Assembly: GCA_015485595.1 (NCBI GenBank)
Contig: WFTH01000034.1
Coordinates: 1 to 13,733 of the forward strand
DNA from: Candidatus Microgenomates bacterium
Lineage (GTDB): Bacteria > Patescibacteriota > Microgenomatia > UBA1400 > PJMF01
DNA: 13,733 nucleotides
Reading direction: 5' to 3'
Made by a program: the position numbers and the translations under genes. Positions 2,541 through 11,410 of the stretch are shown here, one piece after another (positions within the stretch are counted from its first letter, which is position 1; each line of letters opens with the position of its first letter). The notes under the pieces are model-generated. The model searched no databases. It saw nothing but the letters and a program-made list of their open reading frames with translations, and was not told the DNA's origin.

Positions 2541-3251
2541 CTAAATAAACTCTGTTGGTTCGTAAATAGCCCTAAGCAGCGCTATAAGTCTTTCTGGCTC
2601 CAAAGAGATCGAGCCAACCAAGACTCCATCACTAACTGCTAGGTAGTCGTTAACGTTTAGTTCACTCACACTGCCACCATAAAGCACTTTCGTCTGCTGA
2701 CCGTAAAGTTGTTTAATCTTTTTTACCATGGCACTAACTTTATCTGTATCTGCTGCCAAACCGGTACCGATCGACTCTTTTGGCTCATAAGCAATCACAC
2801 ATTCTTGCCAAACAGACTCAGGCAGGGTAGTTGCTTGAGACCGGTAAGTCTCATCATCCACACAAACTATGGGAACTATCTTGTTTGCCAAGGCTTGCTC
2901 CACCTTCAAGGCCACATCGTTATCCGTTTCATGGAAGTAACGTCTCCTCTCTGAGTGACCGAGGATAACGTACTTAACCGGCCAGTCTTTCAGGTTGTAA
3001 GCCGAGACAGCTCCGGTATAGCTTCCAGCAGGGTAGGGACTTAAATCTTGCACAGCCAGCTTAACTTTTAAAAAGTCTCCTGTTGCTAAGGCTACTTCCG
3101 AAACAAAAACAAACGGTGGAGCTAAGGCTAACTCAAGCGCTTTTTTTTTAAGTAATAACTTAAGAGAAGGAGTTAGAAACACCTTAAGCCAGTCGTTCAT
3201 CTCTGACAGGGTCTTGTTTGACTTGAAGTTGGCAATCACTAGCTTTGCCAT
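2541..3251 (-). CDS. tpiA: Triosephosphate isomerase
   Basis: This enzyme interconverts dihydroxyacetone phosphate and glyceraldehyde 3-phosphate in glycolysis. I start it at the ATG at 3251 (MAKLVIANFKSNKT). The frame stays open up to 3296, but that would put an extra 15 residues before the conserved first strand and overlap the divergent helicase gene. The product is 236 aa, slightly short for the bacterial enzyme (about 250). Catalytic residues are present: N8 and K10 in ANFKSN, H99 in ILGHSERRRYF, E156 in AYEP, and the phosphate-binding YGGSV (191-195). The flexible loop 6 is unusual: EPKESIGTG (156-164) where most bacteria have EPVWAIGTG. No Shine-Dalgarno is visible. A TATCAT box on the minus strand 10 nt before the ATG suggests a very short leader. 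The following oxidoreductase gene begins 2 nt after the stop. Confidence 0.95.
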   Translation of the reverse strand: MAKLVIANFKSNKTLSEMNDWLKVFLTPSLKLLLKKKALELALAPPFVFVSEVALATGDFLKVKLAVQDLSPYPAGSYTGAVSAYNLKDWPVKYVILGHSERRRYFHETDNDVALKVEQALANKIVPIVCVDDETYRSQATTLPESVWQECVIAYEPKESIGTGLAADTDKVSAMVKKIKQLYGQQTKVLYGGSVSELNVNDYLAVSDGVLVGSISLEPERLIALLRAIYEPTEFI

Positions 3252-5227: not shown

Positions 5228-6259
5228 ATGCTGGTTCGACCGATCAAAGAAGAAGAAGCCACCCTTTATAACCAAGTCGTTGATCATCCACTTCAGTCCT
5301 GGCAGTGGGGAGAGTTTCGTAAAAAAACCAAAGTTAAGGTAGAGAGAGTAGGTTTTTTTGATCACGGCAAGTTAAAAAAAGCCTTTCAAGTCACCTTTCA
5401 TCATGTCCCTTTTTTAAATCGTACCGTGGGTTACCTACCTAAGTCCTACATGCCCGATGAAGATCAGCTAGAAGTACTAAAAAGTCTAGGCAAACGCCAT
5501 GGCGCTATCTTTGTGAAGATCGAGCCAAACGTGGCTCATCCGGTGGGAAACAAAAGCGCCCACGAGACCATTAAGCAGTTTCTACTTAACCACGGCGCCA
5601 CTTACGGGCGCCCGCTTTTTACCAAGTACACCTTCAAGATCGACTTGACTCAAACCGAAGAGGAGCTCTTCGCTAGCCTAACCTCAAAAACTCGTTATAA
5701 CGTACGGCTGGCGATTAAAAAAGGCGTGACTATTGTAGAAGACTCAAGCGAAAGAGGGGTGGAAACCTACCTTGAGATTTTAAAAGAGACCACCAAAAGA
5801 CAAGGTTTTTACGCTCACTCACCAGACTACTTCCGGAAGATGTGGCAGGCGCTGGGCTCAAGCGGAATGTTAAGAATCTTTCATGCTGTTTATCAAGATC
5901 AAGTCTTGGCAACCTGGATCATGTTTGTCTTTAACGGTGTGCTTTACTATCCCTACGGAGCTTCGCGTAGTGTTCACCGAAACGTGATGGCCAGCAACCT
6001 AATGATGTGGGAGATGATTCGTTTTGGTAAGAAGGTTGGCTGTCAAAGTTTTGACCTTTGGGGAGCACTTGGTCCAGACGCAAGTAAAAAACATCCTTGG
6101 TATGGTTTTCATCGTTTTAAAGCTGGTTATGGGGGTGAGCTTATTGAGTTTTTGGGAACCTTTGATGTTCTGGTTGACCCACCTATGTACCAAATCTATA
6201 CTATCGGAGATAGTTTGAGGTGGAAGGTGTTAAAGTTAAAGGCAAGGCTTTCGTTCTGA
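5228..6259 (+). CDS. FemAB/FemX-family peptidoglycan aminoacyltransferase
   Basis: Members of this family add amino acids from aminoacyl-tRNA to the stem peptide of the cell-wall precursor lipid II in the cytoplasm. The 343-aa protein has the two tandem GNAT-like halves of the family. SWQWGEFRKKT (about 24-34) and VGYLPKSYMP lie in the first. LFASLTSKTRYNVRLAIKKGV, matching the typical KTRYN(I/V)RLA signature, opens the second. The C-terminal half carries VLYYPYGAS, ANSNLMMWE-like helix residues and FDLWGALGPD...HPWYGFHRFKAGYGGE, the usual end block. No long helical arm insertion of the FemA type is seen, so it is closer in size to FemX or MurM types. Which amino acid and which position it adds cannot be deduced. 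The gene is preceded by TATAAT and lies 51 bp after the helicase gene. Downstream come a heptad repeat and the first structured RNA. Confidence 0.85.
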   Translation: MLVRPIKEEEATLYNQVVDHPLQSWQWGEFRKKTKVKVERVGFFDHGKLKKAFQVTFHHVPFLNRTVGYLPKSYMPDEDQLEVLKSLGKRHGAIFVKIEPNVAHPVGNKSAHETIKQFLLNHGATYGRPLFTKYTFKIDLTQTEEELFASLTSKTRYNVRLAIKKGVTIVEDSSERGVETYLEILKETTKRQGFYAHSPDYFRKMWQALGSSGMLRIFHAVYQDQVLATWIMFVFNGVLYYPYGASRSVHRNVMASNLMMWEMIRFGKKVGCQSFDLWGALGPDASKKHPWYGFHRFKAGYGGELIEFLGTFDVLVDPPMYQIYTIGDSLRWKVLKLKARLSF

Positions 6260-6301
6260 ACCTAGTTCATTTAAGTTTGATCAAGGTAAGATTGATTTTT
6301 G

Positions 6302-6329
6302 GGATACTGGATACTAGATACTGGATAAT
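6302..6329. repeat. Heptanucleotide tandem repeat (GGATACT type, four units)
   Basis: GGATACT at 6302-6308 and 6309-6315, AGATACT at 6316-6322 and GGATAAT at 6323-6329 make four head-to-tail 7-bp units with few changes. It lies 42 bp after the FemAB stop and 13 bp before the structured RNA. Each unit offers a weak -10-like hexamer (GATACT; GATAAT at 6324-6329), so the array could double as promoter for the RNA-pyrH transcript. That is inference. Confidence 0.8.
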
Positions 6330-6342
6330 AATTAAAAATGTA

Positions 6343-6465
6343 ATCAAACGGACAAATTTTAAAAAGCCTCTACTGAGGAGGTCTGGTTGTTTTGGGGCAA
6401 TCGCACCTCACCAAGCGTTTTTACCGACGAGATTTAGAGGTTTTTTAAAATTTCGTCTGTTTGAT
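6343..6465 (+). ncRNA. Structured RNA element, copy A, upstream of pyrH (class unknown)
   Basis: The arms 6343-6372 and 6435-6465 form a 30-bp stem with two G-U pairs (G6366, G6350) and one bulged base (C6454). Inside is a 58-nt core (6373-6430) that is almost the same as the core of copy B (10183-10239). Identical blocks are CTGAGGAGGTCTGGTTG, CAATCGCACC and GTTTTTACCGACGA. Likely inner helices are TTGTT/GGCAA (6387-6391 with 6396-6400) closing the tetraloop TTGG, GTC(T)GG with CCGAC (6381-6386 with 6424-6428), and CGC with GCG (6402-6404 with 6415-6417). Four nucleotides (GATT) join the core to the right arm. The element ends 59 nt before the pyrH ATG, in sense orientation. It could be a cis-acting leader, a stand-alone small RNA or a small mobile element. 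The plus strand is chosen from the position of the downstream gene. Confidence 0.75.
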
Positions 6466-6510
6466 GAAATAAAAACAATGCTTGAATATTTTTGAATTTA
6501 GAAAATTTAA

Positions 6511-6519
6511 AAAGAAAGG
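6511..6519 (+). promoter_or_regulatory. Ribosome binding site that fixes the pyrH start
   Basis: AAAGAAAGG at 6511-6519 lies 5 nt before the ATG at 6525. The same purine run precedes gap (10350-10357) and the 120-aa gene (8935-8943). The reading frame is open further up to a TTG at 6492, but that would put this site inside the coding region. Confidence 0.8.
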
Positions 6520-6524
6520 TCTCT

Positions 6525-7280
6525 ATGACTAAAAAAACTCCAAACACCCGTTTTAAACGTATCCTCCTCAAGGTCGGCGGCGAGTCGATGATCGGTGACC
6601 GCGAGTACGGCATCGACCCTAAAGCAGCCCTTAAGGTAGCCAAGCATATAAAAGATATCTACACCATGCATGTCCAGATCGCTATTGTGATTGGCGGTGG
6701 CAACATCTTTCGGGGTATTGCTGGCGAAAAAAACGGCGTCGACCGAGCTACCGCAGACTACATGGGCATGCTGGCTACAGTTATGAACGGCTTGGCCCTC
6801 CAAGATGCACTGGAAAAGATCGGTGTACCAACGCGCATGCAGTCGGCTCTTTTAATGCCGGCAGTAGCCGAGAGCTTTATCCGGCGCAAGGCTATTCGTC
6901 ACATGGAAAAAGGTAGAGTGGTGATCCTGGCTGCTGGTACCGGCGTACCTTATGTCACTACTGACACCGGCGCCTCACTTCACGCTCTGGAACTTAAGTG
7001 TGATGTCTTAATGAAAGCCACCAAGGTTGACGGTGTTTATGACAAAGACCCATTAAAACATGCTGATGCTAAGCGTTACCGCACCTTAAACTTCAAAGAT
7101 GCTATCGAAAAAGCCGATATTCAGATTATGGACACAGCGGCACTGGCCATGAGCCAGGAAAATAACATGCCGGTAATGGTCTTTGAGCTGTTTAAAAACG
7201 ACAACCTGGTTAAAGCGGTTAGAGGTGAAGATATCGGCACCTATTTGGCAAATGATGTTAAAACCGAGCTTGCTGTTTAA
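6525..7280 (+). CDS. pyrH: UMP kinase
   Basis: This enzyme phosphorylates UMP to UDP with ATP, supplying all pyrimidine nucleotides. It is a cytoplasmic hexamer of the amino-acid-kinase fold. The 251-aa product (start at ATG 6525) has the family signatures in order: RILLKVGGESM (12-22, phosphate-binding loop), IAIVIGGGNIFRG (about 53-65), DRATADYMGMLATVMNGLALQDAL (UMP pocket and helix), RMQSALLMPAVAE, VILAAGTGVPYVTTDTGASLHAL (about 141-163) and the ATP-site region VLMKATKVDGVYDKDP. Length is normal (about 240 aa). The usual bacterial partner frr does not follow. Instead the gene converges on an unrelated gene, and the two stop codons overlap (plus TAA 7278-7280, minus TAA 7279-7277). A 182-nt region upstream holds the structured RNA, so the mRNA probably has a long folded leader. 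Confidence 0.96.
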   Translation: MTKKTPNTRFKRILLKVGGESMIGDREYGIDPKAALKVAKHIKDIYTMHVQIAIVIGGGNIFRGIAGEKNGVDRATADYMGMLATVMNGLALQDALEKIGVPTRMQSALLMPAVAESFIRRKAIRHMEKGRVVILAAGTGVPYVTTDTGASLHALELKCDVLMKATKVDGVYDKDPLKHADAKRYRTLNFKDAIEKADIQIMDTAALAMSQENNMPVMVFELFKNDNLVKAVRGEDIGTYLANDVKTELAV

Positions 7281-8737
7281 AAGTATCCACTTTCATGTTT
7301 GTAAAACGGATCAGGTTTTGTAACGTGTTTCTTGGCTTCATCTTTTAGCCAATACTCAAAATCATCATCTTCTGGGCTAATACCTGACAGAAGGAGCATA
7401 TTAGTTAATTCTTCTTTATGTGCTTGTATATACTGATGCACTTCTTGCTGGTACACTCTGTCTATATAATCGTCGTAAGAAGGCCAATGTTCAGCTACGC
7501 TGCGCAAAAAGACTCGTGCTAAGTCATTTTGGTCTAAGTTGTCAACTTCCAGCAACCTGCTTAACTTTGCAACTAACATTGCATACTTATTTAACCCCAG
7601 AATCAGACCGGAAAGATCAGCCGAGTTTTCTGGTGCTAAGCCGATCTCTAACAGTCCTTCATGCACAGAAAAGTTATCCGCAATCTCTCCAAAGAACGTA
7701 ATGTTCTGGTCATGAAGCGCACCATGTGATACAGAGTTGTTGCCATTGCCATACATGGCGTCATAGTTCTTGCCCATAGTGGCAGATAAGGCTAAACCAA
7801 AGTCCATTAAAATACTTAAAAGTTCCTTCGCTTGAAGGCGGGTGTGTTCTGCATTAACCAAGTGAGTATATTTTTTAGTTAACTCTTGATACTCTGGGGA
7901 AATGTCTTGAGCAGCTAGGTCTAGTAAAGCTTGAACGAAAATAGACAGTTTTTCCGTGTTAACCTGTGTCTGATTGTTATCTGTTTCTAGAAATGTCCGA
8001 GCTAAAATATCGTTAACATCTTCTAAAGTTAAGGGGCATGACACTAACCAGTCACTTTGATAGATCTCTTCTTCTGTTAAGCCTTCTTGCTTTAAGTAGT
8101 TCCTGTCCTTAAGCTCCATCTGCCCAGTTTCTTCGTTATAAAACCATAGTTTTTTTATAAACCTGCCAGCAAGCGGCAACCTTGTCTTAACACCTCGTTT
8201 GTGCAACATCAGTGAGTTCTTAGCGTCCAAAATCTGCCTCTCGTCCAGGTGAGACCCTAAACCTACTGTAGCCTCGCGCTTAATTAGATCAGTACGTTCG
8301 TCTCCATGTGGGTTTGTTGGTGTATGACGAAATATTGGTGGTTTTCCTTTATAATCAGCCCAGGTTTCACGTACTATTTTAGGGGCTCCGGTAACTTTTG
8401 TTTTAATGTAAGCCAAGGACCTTCTACCATCTACAGTTAAAACTGGTCGTTCTAGAGTTCTAAATACAGCACGACCTAAAAATCGAGTGGCTTCGGCAAA
8501 CATAAGCCTAACCGATACTCCTGGGTCAGCTGAGTCATGAGTATTTAGAATCGGATTCTCATCTACTACCTGCAAGGCAGGAAGTTTCGCAACATCAACG
8601 GGTGAGTCATCTGCCAAAACAATCTTAGGAAATGCACTGTCGTGCTGTACCACCTCTGGTGGTAAAATAGCCACCTGTTCTTTTTGGGTTCCAAGTGGTG
8701 TTTCTTTTAATGGTATGTTTAGGTACTCTGTGGGCAT
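7277..8737 (-). CDS. Hypothetical protein, 486 aa, with a degenerate kinase-like HGALHDQN motif
   Basis: I do not recognise this protein. It is soluble-looking (no membrane segments, no signal peptide) and acidic. The first 75 residues look low in structure (many P, D, V). The middle contains an RFIKKLWFYNEETGQMELKD stretch (192-211). A helical region (295-325) precedes VSHGALHDQNITFF (336-349). This resembles the catalytic loop HGDLHxxN of the aminoglycoside phosphotransferase/choline kinase fold, but with Ala in place of the catalytic Asp. EIADNFS (351-357) would sit where the metal-binding Asp comes, and ADLSGLIL (373-380) where these proteins have a D-L-A helix. The rest is helical and the protein ends FYKHESGYF. 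This suggests a kinase-fold protein with altered or lost activity, at low confidence. It is divergent from the 120-aa gene across a 214-bp region with repeats, and both proteins start MPTE. No Shine-Dalgarno is seen. Confidence 0.75.
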   Translation of the reverse strand: MPTEYLNIPLKETPLGTQKEQVAILPPEVVQHDSAFPKIVLADDSPVDVAKLPALQVVDENPILNTHDSADPGVSVRLMFAEATRFLGRAVFRTLERPVLTVDGRRSLAYIKTKVTGAPKIVRETWADYKGKPPIFRHTPTNPHGDERTDLIKREATVGLGSHLDERQILDAKNSLMLHKRGVKTRLPLAGRFIKKLWFYNEETGQMELKDRNYLKQEGLTEEEIYQSDWLVSCPLTLEDVNDILARTFLETDNNQTQVNTEKLSIFVQALLDLAAQDISPEYQELTKKYTHLVNAEHTRLQAKELLSILMDFGLALSATMGKNYDAMYGNGNNSVSHGALHDQNITFFGEIADNFSVHEGLLEIGLAPENSADLSGLILGLNKYAMLVAKLSRLLEVDNLDQNDLARVFLRSVAEHWPSYDDYIDRVYQQEVHQYIQAHKEELTNMLLLSGISPEDDDFEYWLKDEAKKHVTKPDPFYKHESGYF

Positions 8738-8794
8738 GTTAGTACACAGTTAAACACTTCACTTTTTTTAAACTTCCAAACTAAAATTTAGTTA

Positions 8795-8890
8795 TGCAAT
8801 CCGTGCAAAAACTGCAAGTTATTGGCACTATAGACAATATAACATAATTATTATATAGTTATCTATAGTTATCTATAGTTATATAGTTGG
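8795..8890. promoter_or_regulatory. Iterated motifs in the divergent intergenic region
   Basis: The 214 bp between the two unrecognised genes (8738-8951) hold two arrays. TGCAA occurs at 8795-8799, 8804-8808 and 8813-8817, a 9-bp spacing. A 10-bp repeat follows: TTATATAGTT (8851-8860), ATCTATAGTT (8861-8870), ATCTATAGTT (8871-8880) and ATATAGTTGG (8881-8890). The ten-base phase would put sites on one face of the helix, as in operators, and the array contains TATAGT hexamers that could act as -10 boxes. No clear -35 partner is seen. I infer shared control of both genes. Confidence 0.5.
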
Positions 8891-8951
8891 TTGTTAACAT
8901 AACACTACCCTAGGTAAAGTAAAGTAAGTATTAAAAAGAAAGGAATTTATT

Positions 8952-9314
8952 ATGCCGACAGAAAACAACGCTTTATCTGAATATATAACACAACCACGCA
9001 AAGAAGCAGAAGGAAACGCACCTGAGACTCCAGAACAAGCGTGGAATCATGTCTTTTTAGCATTAGAGAGAGCAATTAGTCAATTTTTAGACCAAAAGGG
9101 CAGTGTGGATGAAGATGAGTTACGAGAGCTAGTAGAAACAACCCTTCGGTCAGAAGATACAAGCGAAGTTTGTATTGCTTACTTTAGCCCTGCTCCCAAA
9201 GACGCAAAAATACTTGACTCCACAATAGTAGGTGAGGCAGAGCAAGAGGTAAAGATTCAAGTAGCTATTGATAATGCTAGAAGACAAGCTGTTTTTTATA
9301 TCACTCGTGCGTAA
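8952..9314 (+). CDS. Hypothetical small acidic protein, 120 aa
   Basis: I do not recognise this protein. The ORF is well supported as a gene: AAAAAGAAAGG (8933-8943) lies 8 nt before the ATG. This is the same ribosome binding sequence as for pyrH and gap. The product has a flexible, Glu-rich N-terminus (1-27), a helical stretch (PEQAWNHVFLALERAISQFLDQ, about 27-48, then DEDELRELVETTLRSE), and a C-terminal half that alternates like beta strands (VCIAYFSPAP, VKIQVAIDNARRQAVFYITRA). It has no membrane segment, signal peptide or cysteine pair (one Cys only). Its start MPTE matches that of the divergent 486-aa protein. The shared regulatory region suggests the two act together, which is inference. 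It is not obviously an antitoxin or DNA-binding protein. Confidence 0.75.
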   Translation: MPTENNALSEYITQPRKEAEGNAPETPEQAWNHVFLALERAISQFLDQKGSVDEDELRELVETTLRSEDTSEVCIAYFSPAPKDAKILDSTIVGEAEQEVKIQVAIDNARRQAVFYITRA

Positions 9315-9330
9315 GTCGCCTGCTTTACTA

Positions 9331-9346
9331 TATAATACATGATGTA
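9331..9346 (+). promoter_or_regulatory. -10 box TATAAT with overlapping dyad
   Basis: TATAAT at 9331-9336 is a perfect -10 hexamer 55 nt before the peptidase start. TACATGATGTA (9336-9346), an 11-bp palindrome with a central G, overlaps its last base and covers the expected start site near 9343, so it could be an operator. No -35 box is evident. A second weak -10-like stretch (TTAATA, 9378-9383) lies right before the ATG at 9392. Confidence 0.4.
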
Positions 9347-9391
9347 CAAGTAATTTAGATACGCGATCGGTTTTGTGTTAATAAACTTGTC

Positions 9392-10011
9392 ATGCAACTA
9401 TTTCTAACCTCAAGTATAGGTGAAGTCATTGGCGACATTGTGCCAAAAATTGGCAATGTTAGCAACCTTAAGCTCACCTTCATTACTACTGCTGCAGAAG
9501 GAGAGGAGGGAGATAAAAGCTGGGTGGATAGCGACCGTCAGGCATTAATAGATGCTGGCTTTAAGCAGGTTACAGACTATACCTTTACTGGAAAAAACAC
9601 CAAGCAGATAAAAAACGACCTGAAAGGCTTTGACATCTTGCACCTTAACGGCGGCAACACCGCCTATCTCCTAAAAGTAATTCACCAAACCGGCGCGTTT
9701 GATGTGATTAAAGATTTGGTTCTTAACCAAGGAAAAATCTACACCGGCTCAAGCGCGCCGGCTCGATGGTGGCAGGCAGTAGTATTAAAGAACTAGAAGA
9801 GATTGATGGTAAAAAGTATTCAAGTCAAGATCTTGAATGTTTTAAGTTTGTACCTTTTGCTATCGCACCACACTGGGGAGGCAAACACTTTAGGGATGAG
9901 TACCGGCAGCTTTGGTCTAAGTACTATACGAAAGAGACTCCCTTTGTGATGTTGCCGGATAACAGTTATTTGTGGGTAAGAGGTGGTTCAATACAATTGA
10001 TAATTGTGTGA
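9392..10011 (+). pseudogene. Peptidase E-like (family S51) gene broken by a frameshift
   Basis: Two overlapping frames make one protein of family S51, Asp-specific dipeptidases with a class-I glutamine-amidotransferase-like fold. Frame one (from 9392) gives MQLFLTSSIG, FITTAAEGEE, the LNGGNT motif (85-90) and IYTGSSA (116-122), whose S121 is the nucleophile by family logic. It then runs into unrelated residues and stops at 9796. The other frame continues the family sequence at once: GSMVAGSSIKELEE from 9760, then FAIAPHWGGKHFRDEY (candidate catalytic His), and ends at 10011. The switch lies in AGCGCGCCGG (9752-9761). Removing one GC dinucleotide (9755-9756) restores GSSAGSMVAG and a protein of about 205 aa, a normal length. 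So it is either a recent 2-bp duplication or a sequence error. No slippery heptamer is visible. No Shine-Dalgarno precedes the ATG. Confidence 0.8.
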
Positions 10012-10044
10012 CACTGTCATACAAGTGTCATACATTGTCATACG
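10009..10044. repeat. Three direct TGTCATAC repeats with an overlapping dyad
   Basis: TGTCATAC starts at 10015, 10026 and 10036, spacings of 11 and 10 bp (about one helix turn). The first two copies extend to TGTCATACA. TGACACTGTCA (10009-10019) is an 11-bp palindrome around a central C that includes the peptidase stop codon and the first repeat. This could be an operator array, but the terminator that follows separates it from gap. Confidence 0.7.
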
Positions 10045-10050
10045 TTTTTA

Positions 10051-10079
10051 AAAAAATACCGATTCATCGGTCTATTTTT
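10051..10079 (+). terminator. Intrinsic terminator after the peptidase E gene
   Basis: ACCGA (10058-10062) pairs with TCGGT (10067-10071) around the tetraloop TTCA. Flanking AAAAAT (10052-10057) can pair with ATTTTT (10074-10079) across a 2-nt bulge, and the T-run 10075-10079 follows. It lies 46 bp after the stop codon. The AT-rich flank would also allow function on the minus strand, but no gene points that way. Confidence 0.65.
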
Positions 10080-10128
10080 CTCTTGATTTTTGAGTTAAAA
10101 ATGAGGTATGCTGTATATGTTGTGTCAG

Positions 10129-10134
10129 TATAGT
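10129..10134 (+). promoter_or_regulatory. Candidate -10 box for the RNA-gap transcript
   Basis: TATAGT (5 of 6 to consensus) would start transcription near 10141, just before the left arm of the structured RNA at 10154. No good -35 is found at 17 bp. An alternative pair is TTGATT (10083-10088) with TATGCT (10107-10112), spacing 18 bp. Either would put the RNA element in the 5' leader of gap. Confidence 0.35.
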
Positions 10135-10153
10135 GATTTACATTCTATGTAAA

Positions 10154-10312
10154 GCAAAACACTTTAAAATTTTTAAGCTTCGCTGAGGAGGTCTGGTTGC
10201 TCTGGAGCAATCGCACCCAAGAAGTGTTTTTACCGACGACCCGCCTGCATCAGCTGGCGCGAAGCAACTGCGGGCAGGGATTCGAAGTCTTAAAAATTTT
10301 AGAGTGTTTTGC
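10154..10312 (+). ncRNA. Structured RNA element, copy B, upstream of gap (class unknown)
   Basis: The arms 10154-10182 and 10283-10312 make a 29-bp stem with one G-U pair (T10164-G10302) and one bulge (T10288). The arm sequences differ from copy A, yet pairing is kept. The core 10183-10239 matches copy A. The tip hairpin is TTGCT/AGCAA with loop CTGG: C-G and T-A pairs replace the G-U pairs of copy A, so both still pair. GTC(T)GG can pair with CCGAC (10191-10196 with 10234-10238 region), and CGC with GTG. Between the core and the GATT joiner (10279-10282), copy B carries 39 extra GC-rich bases. The element ends 51 nt before the gap ATG, in sense orientation. Nothing I know among riboswitches, T-boxes, RNase P, tmRNA or SRP RNA fits. 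Confidence 0.75.
10240..10278. repeat. 39-nt GC-rich self-complementary insert in RNA copy B
   Basis: Compared with copy A, these 39 bases sit exactly between the shared ACCGACGA and GATT. They are 28/39 G or C in an otherwise AT-rich region. They can fold by CCTGC (10244-10248) with GCAGG (10274-10278), plus CAG (10251-10253) with CTG (10268-10270), or alternatively CCCGC (10240-10244) with GCGGG (10270-10274). It may be a separate small palindromic element that landed in the RNA, or an extra helix. Confidence 0.55.
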
Positions 10313-10363
10313 GGCAATACAACCAACTTAAAATAAAACAACTAAACAACAGAAAGGAAACCT

Positions 10364-11410
10364 ATGTCACTTAACTTCGCCATCAATGGATTTGGCCGCA
10401 TCGGCCGCACCGCCACTCGTGTCTGGTGGAAAAACCACCGCAACTTGGCTAACTTAGTCGCCATCAACACTTCAGGCTCGATGGAGATAAACGAGTGGGC
10501 TCACCTTCTAAAGTACGACACCAACTACGGCGTCTTTAACACAGAAATCAAAGTGGAGGAAATCAAGGGAAAGAAAGAGGTAACAGATAAGGATCCTTTA
10601 CTTGGCTACTTAACTATCGGTGATCATAAAATTAAGGTAACCGCCCAACGCGATCCGGCCAAACTACCGTGGGCTGAGTATGGTGTGGATGTGGTGATCG
10701 AGGCCACCGGTGTTTTCCGCACCGAAGAGACTGCTAGTGCTCATCTAACAGCTGGGGCGAAAAAGGTGCTTATCTCTGCACCTGGCAAGGGTGGAGCCAT
10801 CTCTACAGCAGTTATCGGGGTGAACGAGTTTGATCCTGAAGCTAAAATCTTCTCAAACGCTTCCTGTACCACTAACTGTGTGGCGCCGGTGGCGGCAGTG
10901 ATGGTCAAGGAGTTTGGGGTAGAGAAGGCGATGCTCACCACCATTCACTCCTACACCGATGACCAAAACACTCAAGATAACTCCCACAAAAAAGACTTAA
11001 GACGAGCCCGAGCAGCAGCCGAGAACATCATTCCCACCACTACCGGCGCGGCTAAAGCAACCGCCAATGTCATCCCTGAGCTTCAAGGTCTGTTTGATGG
11101 CCTGGCGGTGAGGGTACCCACACCAGTCGGTTCGCTTTCTGATATGGTCTTTGTAACCAAGAGAAACACTACAGTTGAGGAGGTAAACCAGGTTTTAAAC
11201 GAGGCGAGCAAAAGTCCGCGTTGGCAAGGTATTCTGGCCGTCACCCACGACCCGATCGTCTCTTCCGACATTATTGGCCGAGACGAATCAAGCATCGTTG
11301 ACCTGTCTCTGACTCAAGTGATTGGCGGCAACTTGGTGAAGGTAGTTAGTTGGTACGATAACGAGTGGGGCTATTGTAATCGACTGCTAGAACAACTTAG
11401 CAAGATATAA
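10364..11410 (+). CDS. gap: Glyceraldehyde-3-phosphate dehydrogenase, probably NADP-accepting
   Basis: This enzyme oxidises glyceraldehyde 3-phosphate to 1,3-bisphosphoglycerate in glycolysis, or the reverse. The 348-aa product has the Rossmann start FAINGFGRIGR (5-15), catalytic C168 in SNASCTTNC, catalytic H195 in TTIHSYTDDQ, the DLRRARAAAENIIPTTTGAAKA block (211-232) and the end block SWYDNEWGYCNRL. Length is normal (about 335 aa). Cofactor positions are unusual. The acidic residue after VAIN that selects NAD is Thr (T36), followed by SGSM. The Leu-Pro pair before the HKDLRRARAAA block is N206-S207, with one extra Lys after His. These changes point to NADP acceptance by analogy with NADP-type GAPDHs. 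AGAAAGG (10351-10357) lies 6 nt before the ATG. The leader contains structured RNA copy B. No pgk follows. The 138 bp after the stop hold no gene or clear terminator. Confidence 0.96.
   Translation: MSLNFAINGFGRIGRTATRVWWKNHRNLANLVAINTSGSMEINEWAHLLKYDTNYGVFNTEIKVEEIKGKKEVTDKDPLLGYLTIGDHKIKVTAQRDPAKLPWAEYGVDVVIEATGVFRTEETASAHLTAGAKKVLISAPGKGGAISTAVIGVNEFDPEAKIFSNASCTTNCVAPVAAVMVKEFGVEKAMLTTIHSYTDDQNTQDNSHKKDLRRARAAAENIIPTTTGAAKATANVIPELQGLFDGLAVRVPTPVGSLSDMVFVTKRNTTVEEVNQVLNEASKSPRWQGILAVTHDPIVSSDIIGRDESSIVDLSLTQVIGGNLVKVVSWYDNEWGYCNRLLEQLSKI

Follow-up and report, generated by a model that had tools for sequence, protein, structure and literature searches.

The aprE leader and STAB-SD are reportedly 5′ stabilizers of mRNA. 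According to one study (PMC7509114), the strength of the Shine-Dalgarno sequence is important for ompA and other mRNAs even when they are not translated. Here we describe a structured element that occurs twice in a stretch of 13,733 nucleotides (nt) from a Candidatus Microgenomates bacterium (contig WFTH01000034.1 of assembly GCA_015485595.1; contig C34 of genome G000, hereafter the window). The genome comprises 688 kilobases (kb) in 102 contigs and is 92% complete. Copy A of the element precedes pyrH, and copy B precedes gap. The element is a genuine structured RNA, absent from Rfam and, as far as seen, confined to this lineage, although an RNA family cannot be established from it, two sequences being too few.

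Anatomy, folding and strand of the two copies

Both copies consist of a conserved core with an inner hairpin (P2), enclosed by a long stem (P1), and their parts are as follows.

6343–6465, plus strand: copy A of the two-copy structured element, whole
6343–6372, plus strand: copy A, 5′ arm of P1, folding onto 6435–6465 in 30 base pairs (bp) with one bulge
6373–6434, plus strand: copy A, conserved core, CTGAGGAGGTCTGGTTG...GTTTTTACCGACGA-GATT, with 51 of 58 columns as in copy B, plus GATT
6380–6407, plus strand: copy A, inner hairpin P2, made of 3 bp, a C-C mismatch, 8 bp and the loop UUGG (pair probabilities 0.60–1.0)
6435–6465, plus strand: copy A, 3′ arm of P1 (predicted pairing)
10154–10312, plus strand: copy B of the two-copy structured element, whole
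10154–10182, plus strand: copy B, 5′ arm of P1, partner of 10283–10312 in 29 bp with one bulge
10183–10239, plus strand: copy B, core as far as ACCGACGA, conserved in the alignment to copy A
10190–10217, plus strand: copy B, inner hairpin P2 with the loop CUGG (pair probabilities 0.83–1.0)
10240–10278, plus strand: copy B, dispersed palindromic repeat
10279–10282, plus strand: copy B, core end GATT, matching 6431–6434 of copy A
10283–10312, plus strand: copy B, 3′ arm of P1 (predicted pairing)

The cores are nearly identical, as the initial annotation of this DNA had noted. In a pairwise alignment, 6373–6430 of copy A and 10183–10239 of copy B agree in 51 of 58 columns, with 6 substitutions and 1 deletion, and in 55 of 62 once the terminal GATT is counted. 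The two P1 stems are AT-rich and enclose loops of 62 nt (A) and 100 nt (B). Each has a single bulge on its 3′ side, with 2 G-U pairs among the 30 of copy A and, depending on which base is taken as bulged, 1 or 2 among the 29 of copy B; the long stems first described therefore stand. They differ in sequence between the copies. The three pairs adjacent to the core are A-U, U-A and C-G in copy A and G-C, C-G and U-A in copy B, so that both sides have changed and pairing is kept. The proposal that the stems diverged while still pairing is borne out for these three; farther out, the stems of A and B cannot be aligned with confidence. Similarly, the covariation proposed for the inner hairpin is seen in that two U-G pairs of copy A are replaced by C-G and U-A in copy B with pairing kept, but only one side changes in each, and these are not full compensations. 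Both cores contain the Shine-Dalgarno-like motif AGGAGGU, in which pairing involves 5 of the 7 bases in copy A and about half of them in copy B, and both share the strand GUUUUUACCGACGA, the middle of which is largely unpaired in the predicted fold.

Both stems had been thought to close their cores directly. This is true of copy A, but in copy B the 39 nt at 10240–10278 lie between ACCGACGA and GATT. They form a hairpin belonging to a dispersed palindromic repeat of ~40 nt (CCCGCCTGCA...GCAACTGCGGGCAGG), whose 20-nt half is present within 3 mismatches at 7 places in the genome: in copy B and in contigs C64, C47, C54, C9, C42 and C82. The hairpin in copy B is letter-identical to the one in C64. 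Once the repeat is subtracted, both cores end in ACCGACGA-GATT and the stem follows directly. The repeat was probably inserted into copy B after both copies existed, without breaking the stem. Short low-complexity repeats of the ATACTGGATACT / AGATAGAAGAT type were also observed, at 6304–6329 of the window and in loci L225, L231 and L235.

Folding energies were far below those of shuffled sequences: −53.5 kcal/mol for copy A (z −7.5) and −68.6 kcal/mol for copy B (z −5.8), with 0 of 200 shuffles as good in either case. When stems, bulges included, were sought at 20,492 positions spread over the window and 125,414 bases of 20 other contigs (139 of the 688 kb in all), the two copies ranked at the top with scores of 25.6 and 25.3, and the next site scored 15.6. 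This rank, and the gap to the third site, argue that the structures are not due to chance, and confirm that the folds of both copies are real. The sense fold of A contains 7 wobble pairs, 6 of them within P1 and P2, that of B contains 6, with 3 of them in these two helices, and sense folding is better than antisense folding for A (−52.4 versus −35.5 kcal/mol) and for B (−66.3 versus −56.9 kcal/mol). Both observations fit an RNA transcribed in the same sense as pyrH and gap, in agreement with the strand originally assigned.

No known RNA had been recognised in the element, and comparison with the 4227 families of Rfam, where a match is a covariance-model score of at least the curated cut-off, led to the same result. 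Scanning the whole window at E 1 gave a single match, which lies below the threshold and within uvrD-like coding DNA; each copy alone at E 10 gave at best 17.9 bits against a cut-off of 55, and 13.7 against 75. Neither a cloverleaf nor a tmRNA was found by ARAGORN, which rules out these two identities. The element as a whole was also rejected as an intrinsic terminator, given its AT-rich stems, its loops of 62 and 100 nt and the absence of a T run after 6465 and 10312. A conserved leader peptide is unlikely because the one-base deletion in copy B shifts any frame within the core; a peptide starting at TTG 6387, behind AGGAGGU, was likewise discarded, the reading frames differing between A and B. 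A protein search with the open reading frame (ORF) overlapping copy A found only itself.

Further copies and other hairpins in relatives

To search for more copies we relied mainly on R1, a model of the core alone, run with stricter search filters with which weak relatives may be lost. In its own genome R1 finds the two copies; 28 further stretches, totalling 148,876 bases, gave no match. A 17-mer core pattern also has two exact copies there; its matches in C26 and C82, with 3 mismatches each, are attributed to chance, since a reversed control also finds two and R1 is blank at both places. A 15-mer scan of genome contigs showed no second core copy among the matches listed. Outside this genome, R1 was applied to overlapping sets amounting to some 800 distinct genomes. 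Of 88 genomes from the order it picked out this genome and no other (E 1); it gave 2 positives among 373 of the class (E 0.1), namely this genome and one chance match in coding DNA, 1 among 379 of the phylum (E 0.01), which is G000, and 0 among 82 of another order (E 0.01), a set without positive control. The pattern search in 42 genomes of the family matched this genome alone. The chance match of the class, in G604 (E 0.0065), was dismissed because it sits in an ORF that reads by eye as GAPDH, and so was one in the viral locus L161, which lies inside an ORF and matches in its hairpin part alone; the other matches in viral contigs were at chance level, among the matches listed. With blastn, copy A against phages reached a best E of 0.7 and copy B against plasmids a best E of 0.5, one copy being used per collection.

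By the test that the initial annotation itself had set, a wider RNA family is not shown, no third copy having emerged in its own genome or the others. Judged by GAPDH identity, this absence from relatives is shown at genus distance or more only: the nearest family genome searched is 72% identical, and closer GAPDH relatives exist (P0003–P0006, 84–87%), with record labels reading Patescibacteria group, Woesebacteria, Pacebacteria, Microgenomates group and, in one case, Pseudomonadales.

An ungapped stem scan was performed on 60 loci totalling 226,122 bases, 58 of them from relatives (some overlapping) and two, L162 and L192, from the window. At a score of at least 16 it returned both window copies, elements in G388, G398, G401 and G402, and nothing else. 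In G388 (L164), the spacer between femAB and pyrH, which is that of copy A, contains a perfect 24-bp hairpin with a 21-nt loop. This spacer can therefore gain hairpins by other routes, which keeps alive the possibility of a mobile element considered below. In G398 a palindrome pair follows gap.

The element of genus g3 (G401 and G402) is built of a 17-bp stem of varying sequence that closes a conserved core, ATCGCTAGAGCC...GTGGGATCTCCCGATGAG. It was observed at 3155–3251 of L217, on the minus strand of L220 and in L185, directly before TATAAT and a gene reading by eye as trigger factor; part of it is present in G397 and a degraded part in G208. It has no match in Rfam at E 0.5 and is possibly another undescribed structured element. 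Kinship with copies A and B was rejected, the 6-nt match between them being equalled in 781 of 1000 shuffles.

The femAB-pyrH-gap neighbourhood

A match to pyrH was obtained in 36 of the 42 family genomes, this genome included, the 35 relatives being 63–81% identical, and the locus was recovered for 29 of these relatives; spacings are based on estimated gene starts. Of 28 relatives measured, 26 have a femAB-pyrH spacer between −16 and 127 nt long, and the other two have 423 and 447 nt, the 29th locus being without femAB at a contig end. For pyrH and gap, 24 of the 26 spacers measured fall between 9 and 215 nt, and the other two exceed 1 kb; three further relatives have no gap within 1500 nt of pyrH. 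In G395 (L198) femAB adjoins gap, and no pyrH was recognised there. The window has 265 nt and 3083 nt at these two places: the enlarged femAB-pyrH spacer is filled by copy A, and the stretch of ~3 kb before gap ends with copy B.

6525–7280, plus strand: pyrH (UMP kinase; PF00696), starting 59 nt after copy A
7281–10153, no single strand: stretch from pyrH to copy B, with a 486-amino-acid (aa) minus-strand ORF, a 120-aa ORF and a two-frame S51 peptidase gene (from ORFs and Pfam)
10364–11410, plus strand: gap (GAPDH; PF00044, PF02800), starting 51 nt after copy B

The position initially assigned to the copies, both in sense and ending 51–59 nt before the starts of pyrH and gap, is thus correct. 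What finds no support is the argument built on it, that the two genes are unrelated and that the RNA would accordingly have a general role. pyrH and gap are usual, old neighbours in most of the family members measured, and a duplicated leader is therefore a simple account of why both carry the element.

Two observations concern the stretch between the genes. The S51 peptidase gene (9392–10011) is split over two overlapping frames, reflecting either a broken gene or an assembly indel. The 486-aa protein (7277–8737, minus strand) has no Pfam match at E 0.01 and has five relatives, 33–47% identical and all nameless, among the 7997 candidates sharing most words with it.

Possible roles and comparison with known systems

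The explanation that we favour, tentatively and at somewhat less than even confidence, is a structured 5′ leader specific to this lineage, which would be present in both parts of a broken femAB-pyrH-gap string and act in cis on the processing or stability of the mRNA. The leader would have come to stand before pyrH and then, by a duplication when the string broke into separate transcription units, before gap. Transcripts would begin just upstream of each copy; the ~30-bp helix near their 5′ end could shield the mRNA from 5′-end decay or set a site for RNase III, and the core, with P2 and GUUUUUACCGACGA, may bind a factor. RNase III is encoded in the genome (268.6 bits, cut-off 166.25). Upstream of copy B, at 10058–10071, lies a hairpin that resembles a terminator and is followed by T-rich sequence, which fits a new transcription unit. 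It is one of 9 such sites in a scan where 3.4 are expected, none of which follows either P1 stem.

Several observations weigh against this explanation. Promoter-like sites are at chance level, with 10 against 8.4 expected in 6200–10400, and none lies within 100 nt before either copy. Another of the terminator-like sites, of 6 pairs (6366–6382), lies inside copy A, made of part of the 5′ arm and of the core; its formation would compete with that of P1 and P2, and no equivalent is listed for copy B. The pairing of AGGAGGU makes a ribosome-bound stabilizer not obvious, so that a role of the STAB-SD type can only be envisaged as possible. Five relatives in which the arrangement has opened (the two with spacers above 1 kb and the three without a near gap) show no such RNA, and the two copies have no homologue in the genomes searched.

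This last point also speaks for a non-autonomous palindromic mobile element, resembling a miniature inverted-repeat transposable element (MITE), inserted twice in the spacers of the gene string, the fold then reflecting a palindrome in its DNA, or transposition, rather than gene control. We give this possibility a modest chance. It agrees with the occupation of spacers that most relatives keep short, with the other dispersed palindromes of the genome, one of them within copy B itself, and with the unrelated hairpin of G388. However, the likeness between the arms of A and B is weak (alignments as good arise in 31 of 500 and in 7 of 500 shuffles) and their outer ends differ, which implies that there are no shared terminal inverted repeats. 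Moreover, two copies were found rather than many dispersed ones, both in sense and at similar distances from a start codon, an IS200-type transposase (PF01797) was not found in the 92%-complete genome, and both the wobble pairs and the difference in folding energy between strands indicate an RNA.

Stems that diverged around a core alike in 55 of 62 columns would suit a leader sensing a ligand or a protein, that is, a riboswitch or an autoregulatory site, once for the pyrH-gap unit and now for both genes. The shared neighbourhood removes the objection that these genes would need separate ligands, and P2 partly hides AGGAGGU. We nevertheless consider such a sensor improbable: it has no riboswitch or leader match in Rfam, no expression platform was seen, with no terminator-like site after either stem, the genes' own ribosome sites, of the AAGAAAGG type, lie by eye outside the structure, and relatives would be expected to carry it, yet none of those searched does. 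Still more doubtful is a small RNA gene, or a leader precursor cut by RNase III, whose twin copies act in trans, the genes downstream being incidental. The long double helix together with the encoded RNase III, the largely unpaired middle of GUUUUUACCGACGA, which could serve as a pairing site, and the tolerance of a 39-nt repeat inside copy B all speak for it; the lack of a terminator-like site after the stems, and the way in which both copies hug start codons, speak against it. A bolder form of the leader hypothesis, which we hold to be unlikely though less so than these last two, is an undescribed structured RNA class of one Patescibacteria lineage, with a sensor, ribozyme-like or factor-binding core and a 30-bp closing helix, which gap would have acquired from the leader of pyrH as the string broke, the two genes keeping a common control.

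If the duplicated leader is true, a gene string has split and both parts have kept the RNA element, a natural test of the element's purpose, and the diverged stems around a fixed core are clear mutants for testing. In the papers searched, the structured RNAs of this phylum seem to have received little attention. The literature searched on structured RNAs of Patescibacteria, Microgenomates or the Candidate Phyla Radiation, or on pyrH leaders, describes no such element in the portions available (PMC11665869 included).

Compared with known systems, the element is like the riboswitch and leader families of Rfam, T-box included, in having a conserved core and a less conserved closing stem before genes; it differs in that none of the 4227 families matches. 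Its closing stem is far longer than is usual for such families. With MITEs and palindromic repeats of the REP (repetitive extragenic palindromic) type it shares a long intergenic inverted repeat, lineage-specific as far as seen, but its arms are not common to A and B, and there are two copies of equal orientation and gene distance. With the ompA and aprE leaders and STAB-SD it has in common a stable stem near the presumed 5′ end and a Shine-Dalgarno-like AGGAGGU that does not serve the gene's own start. In contrast to these stabilizers, most of AGGAGGU in A and part of it in B is here engaged in pairing, and the helix of ~30 bp closes a conserved core.

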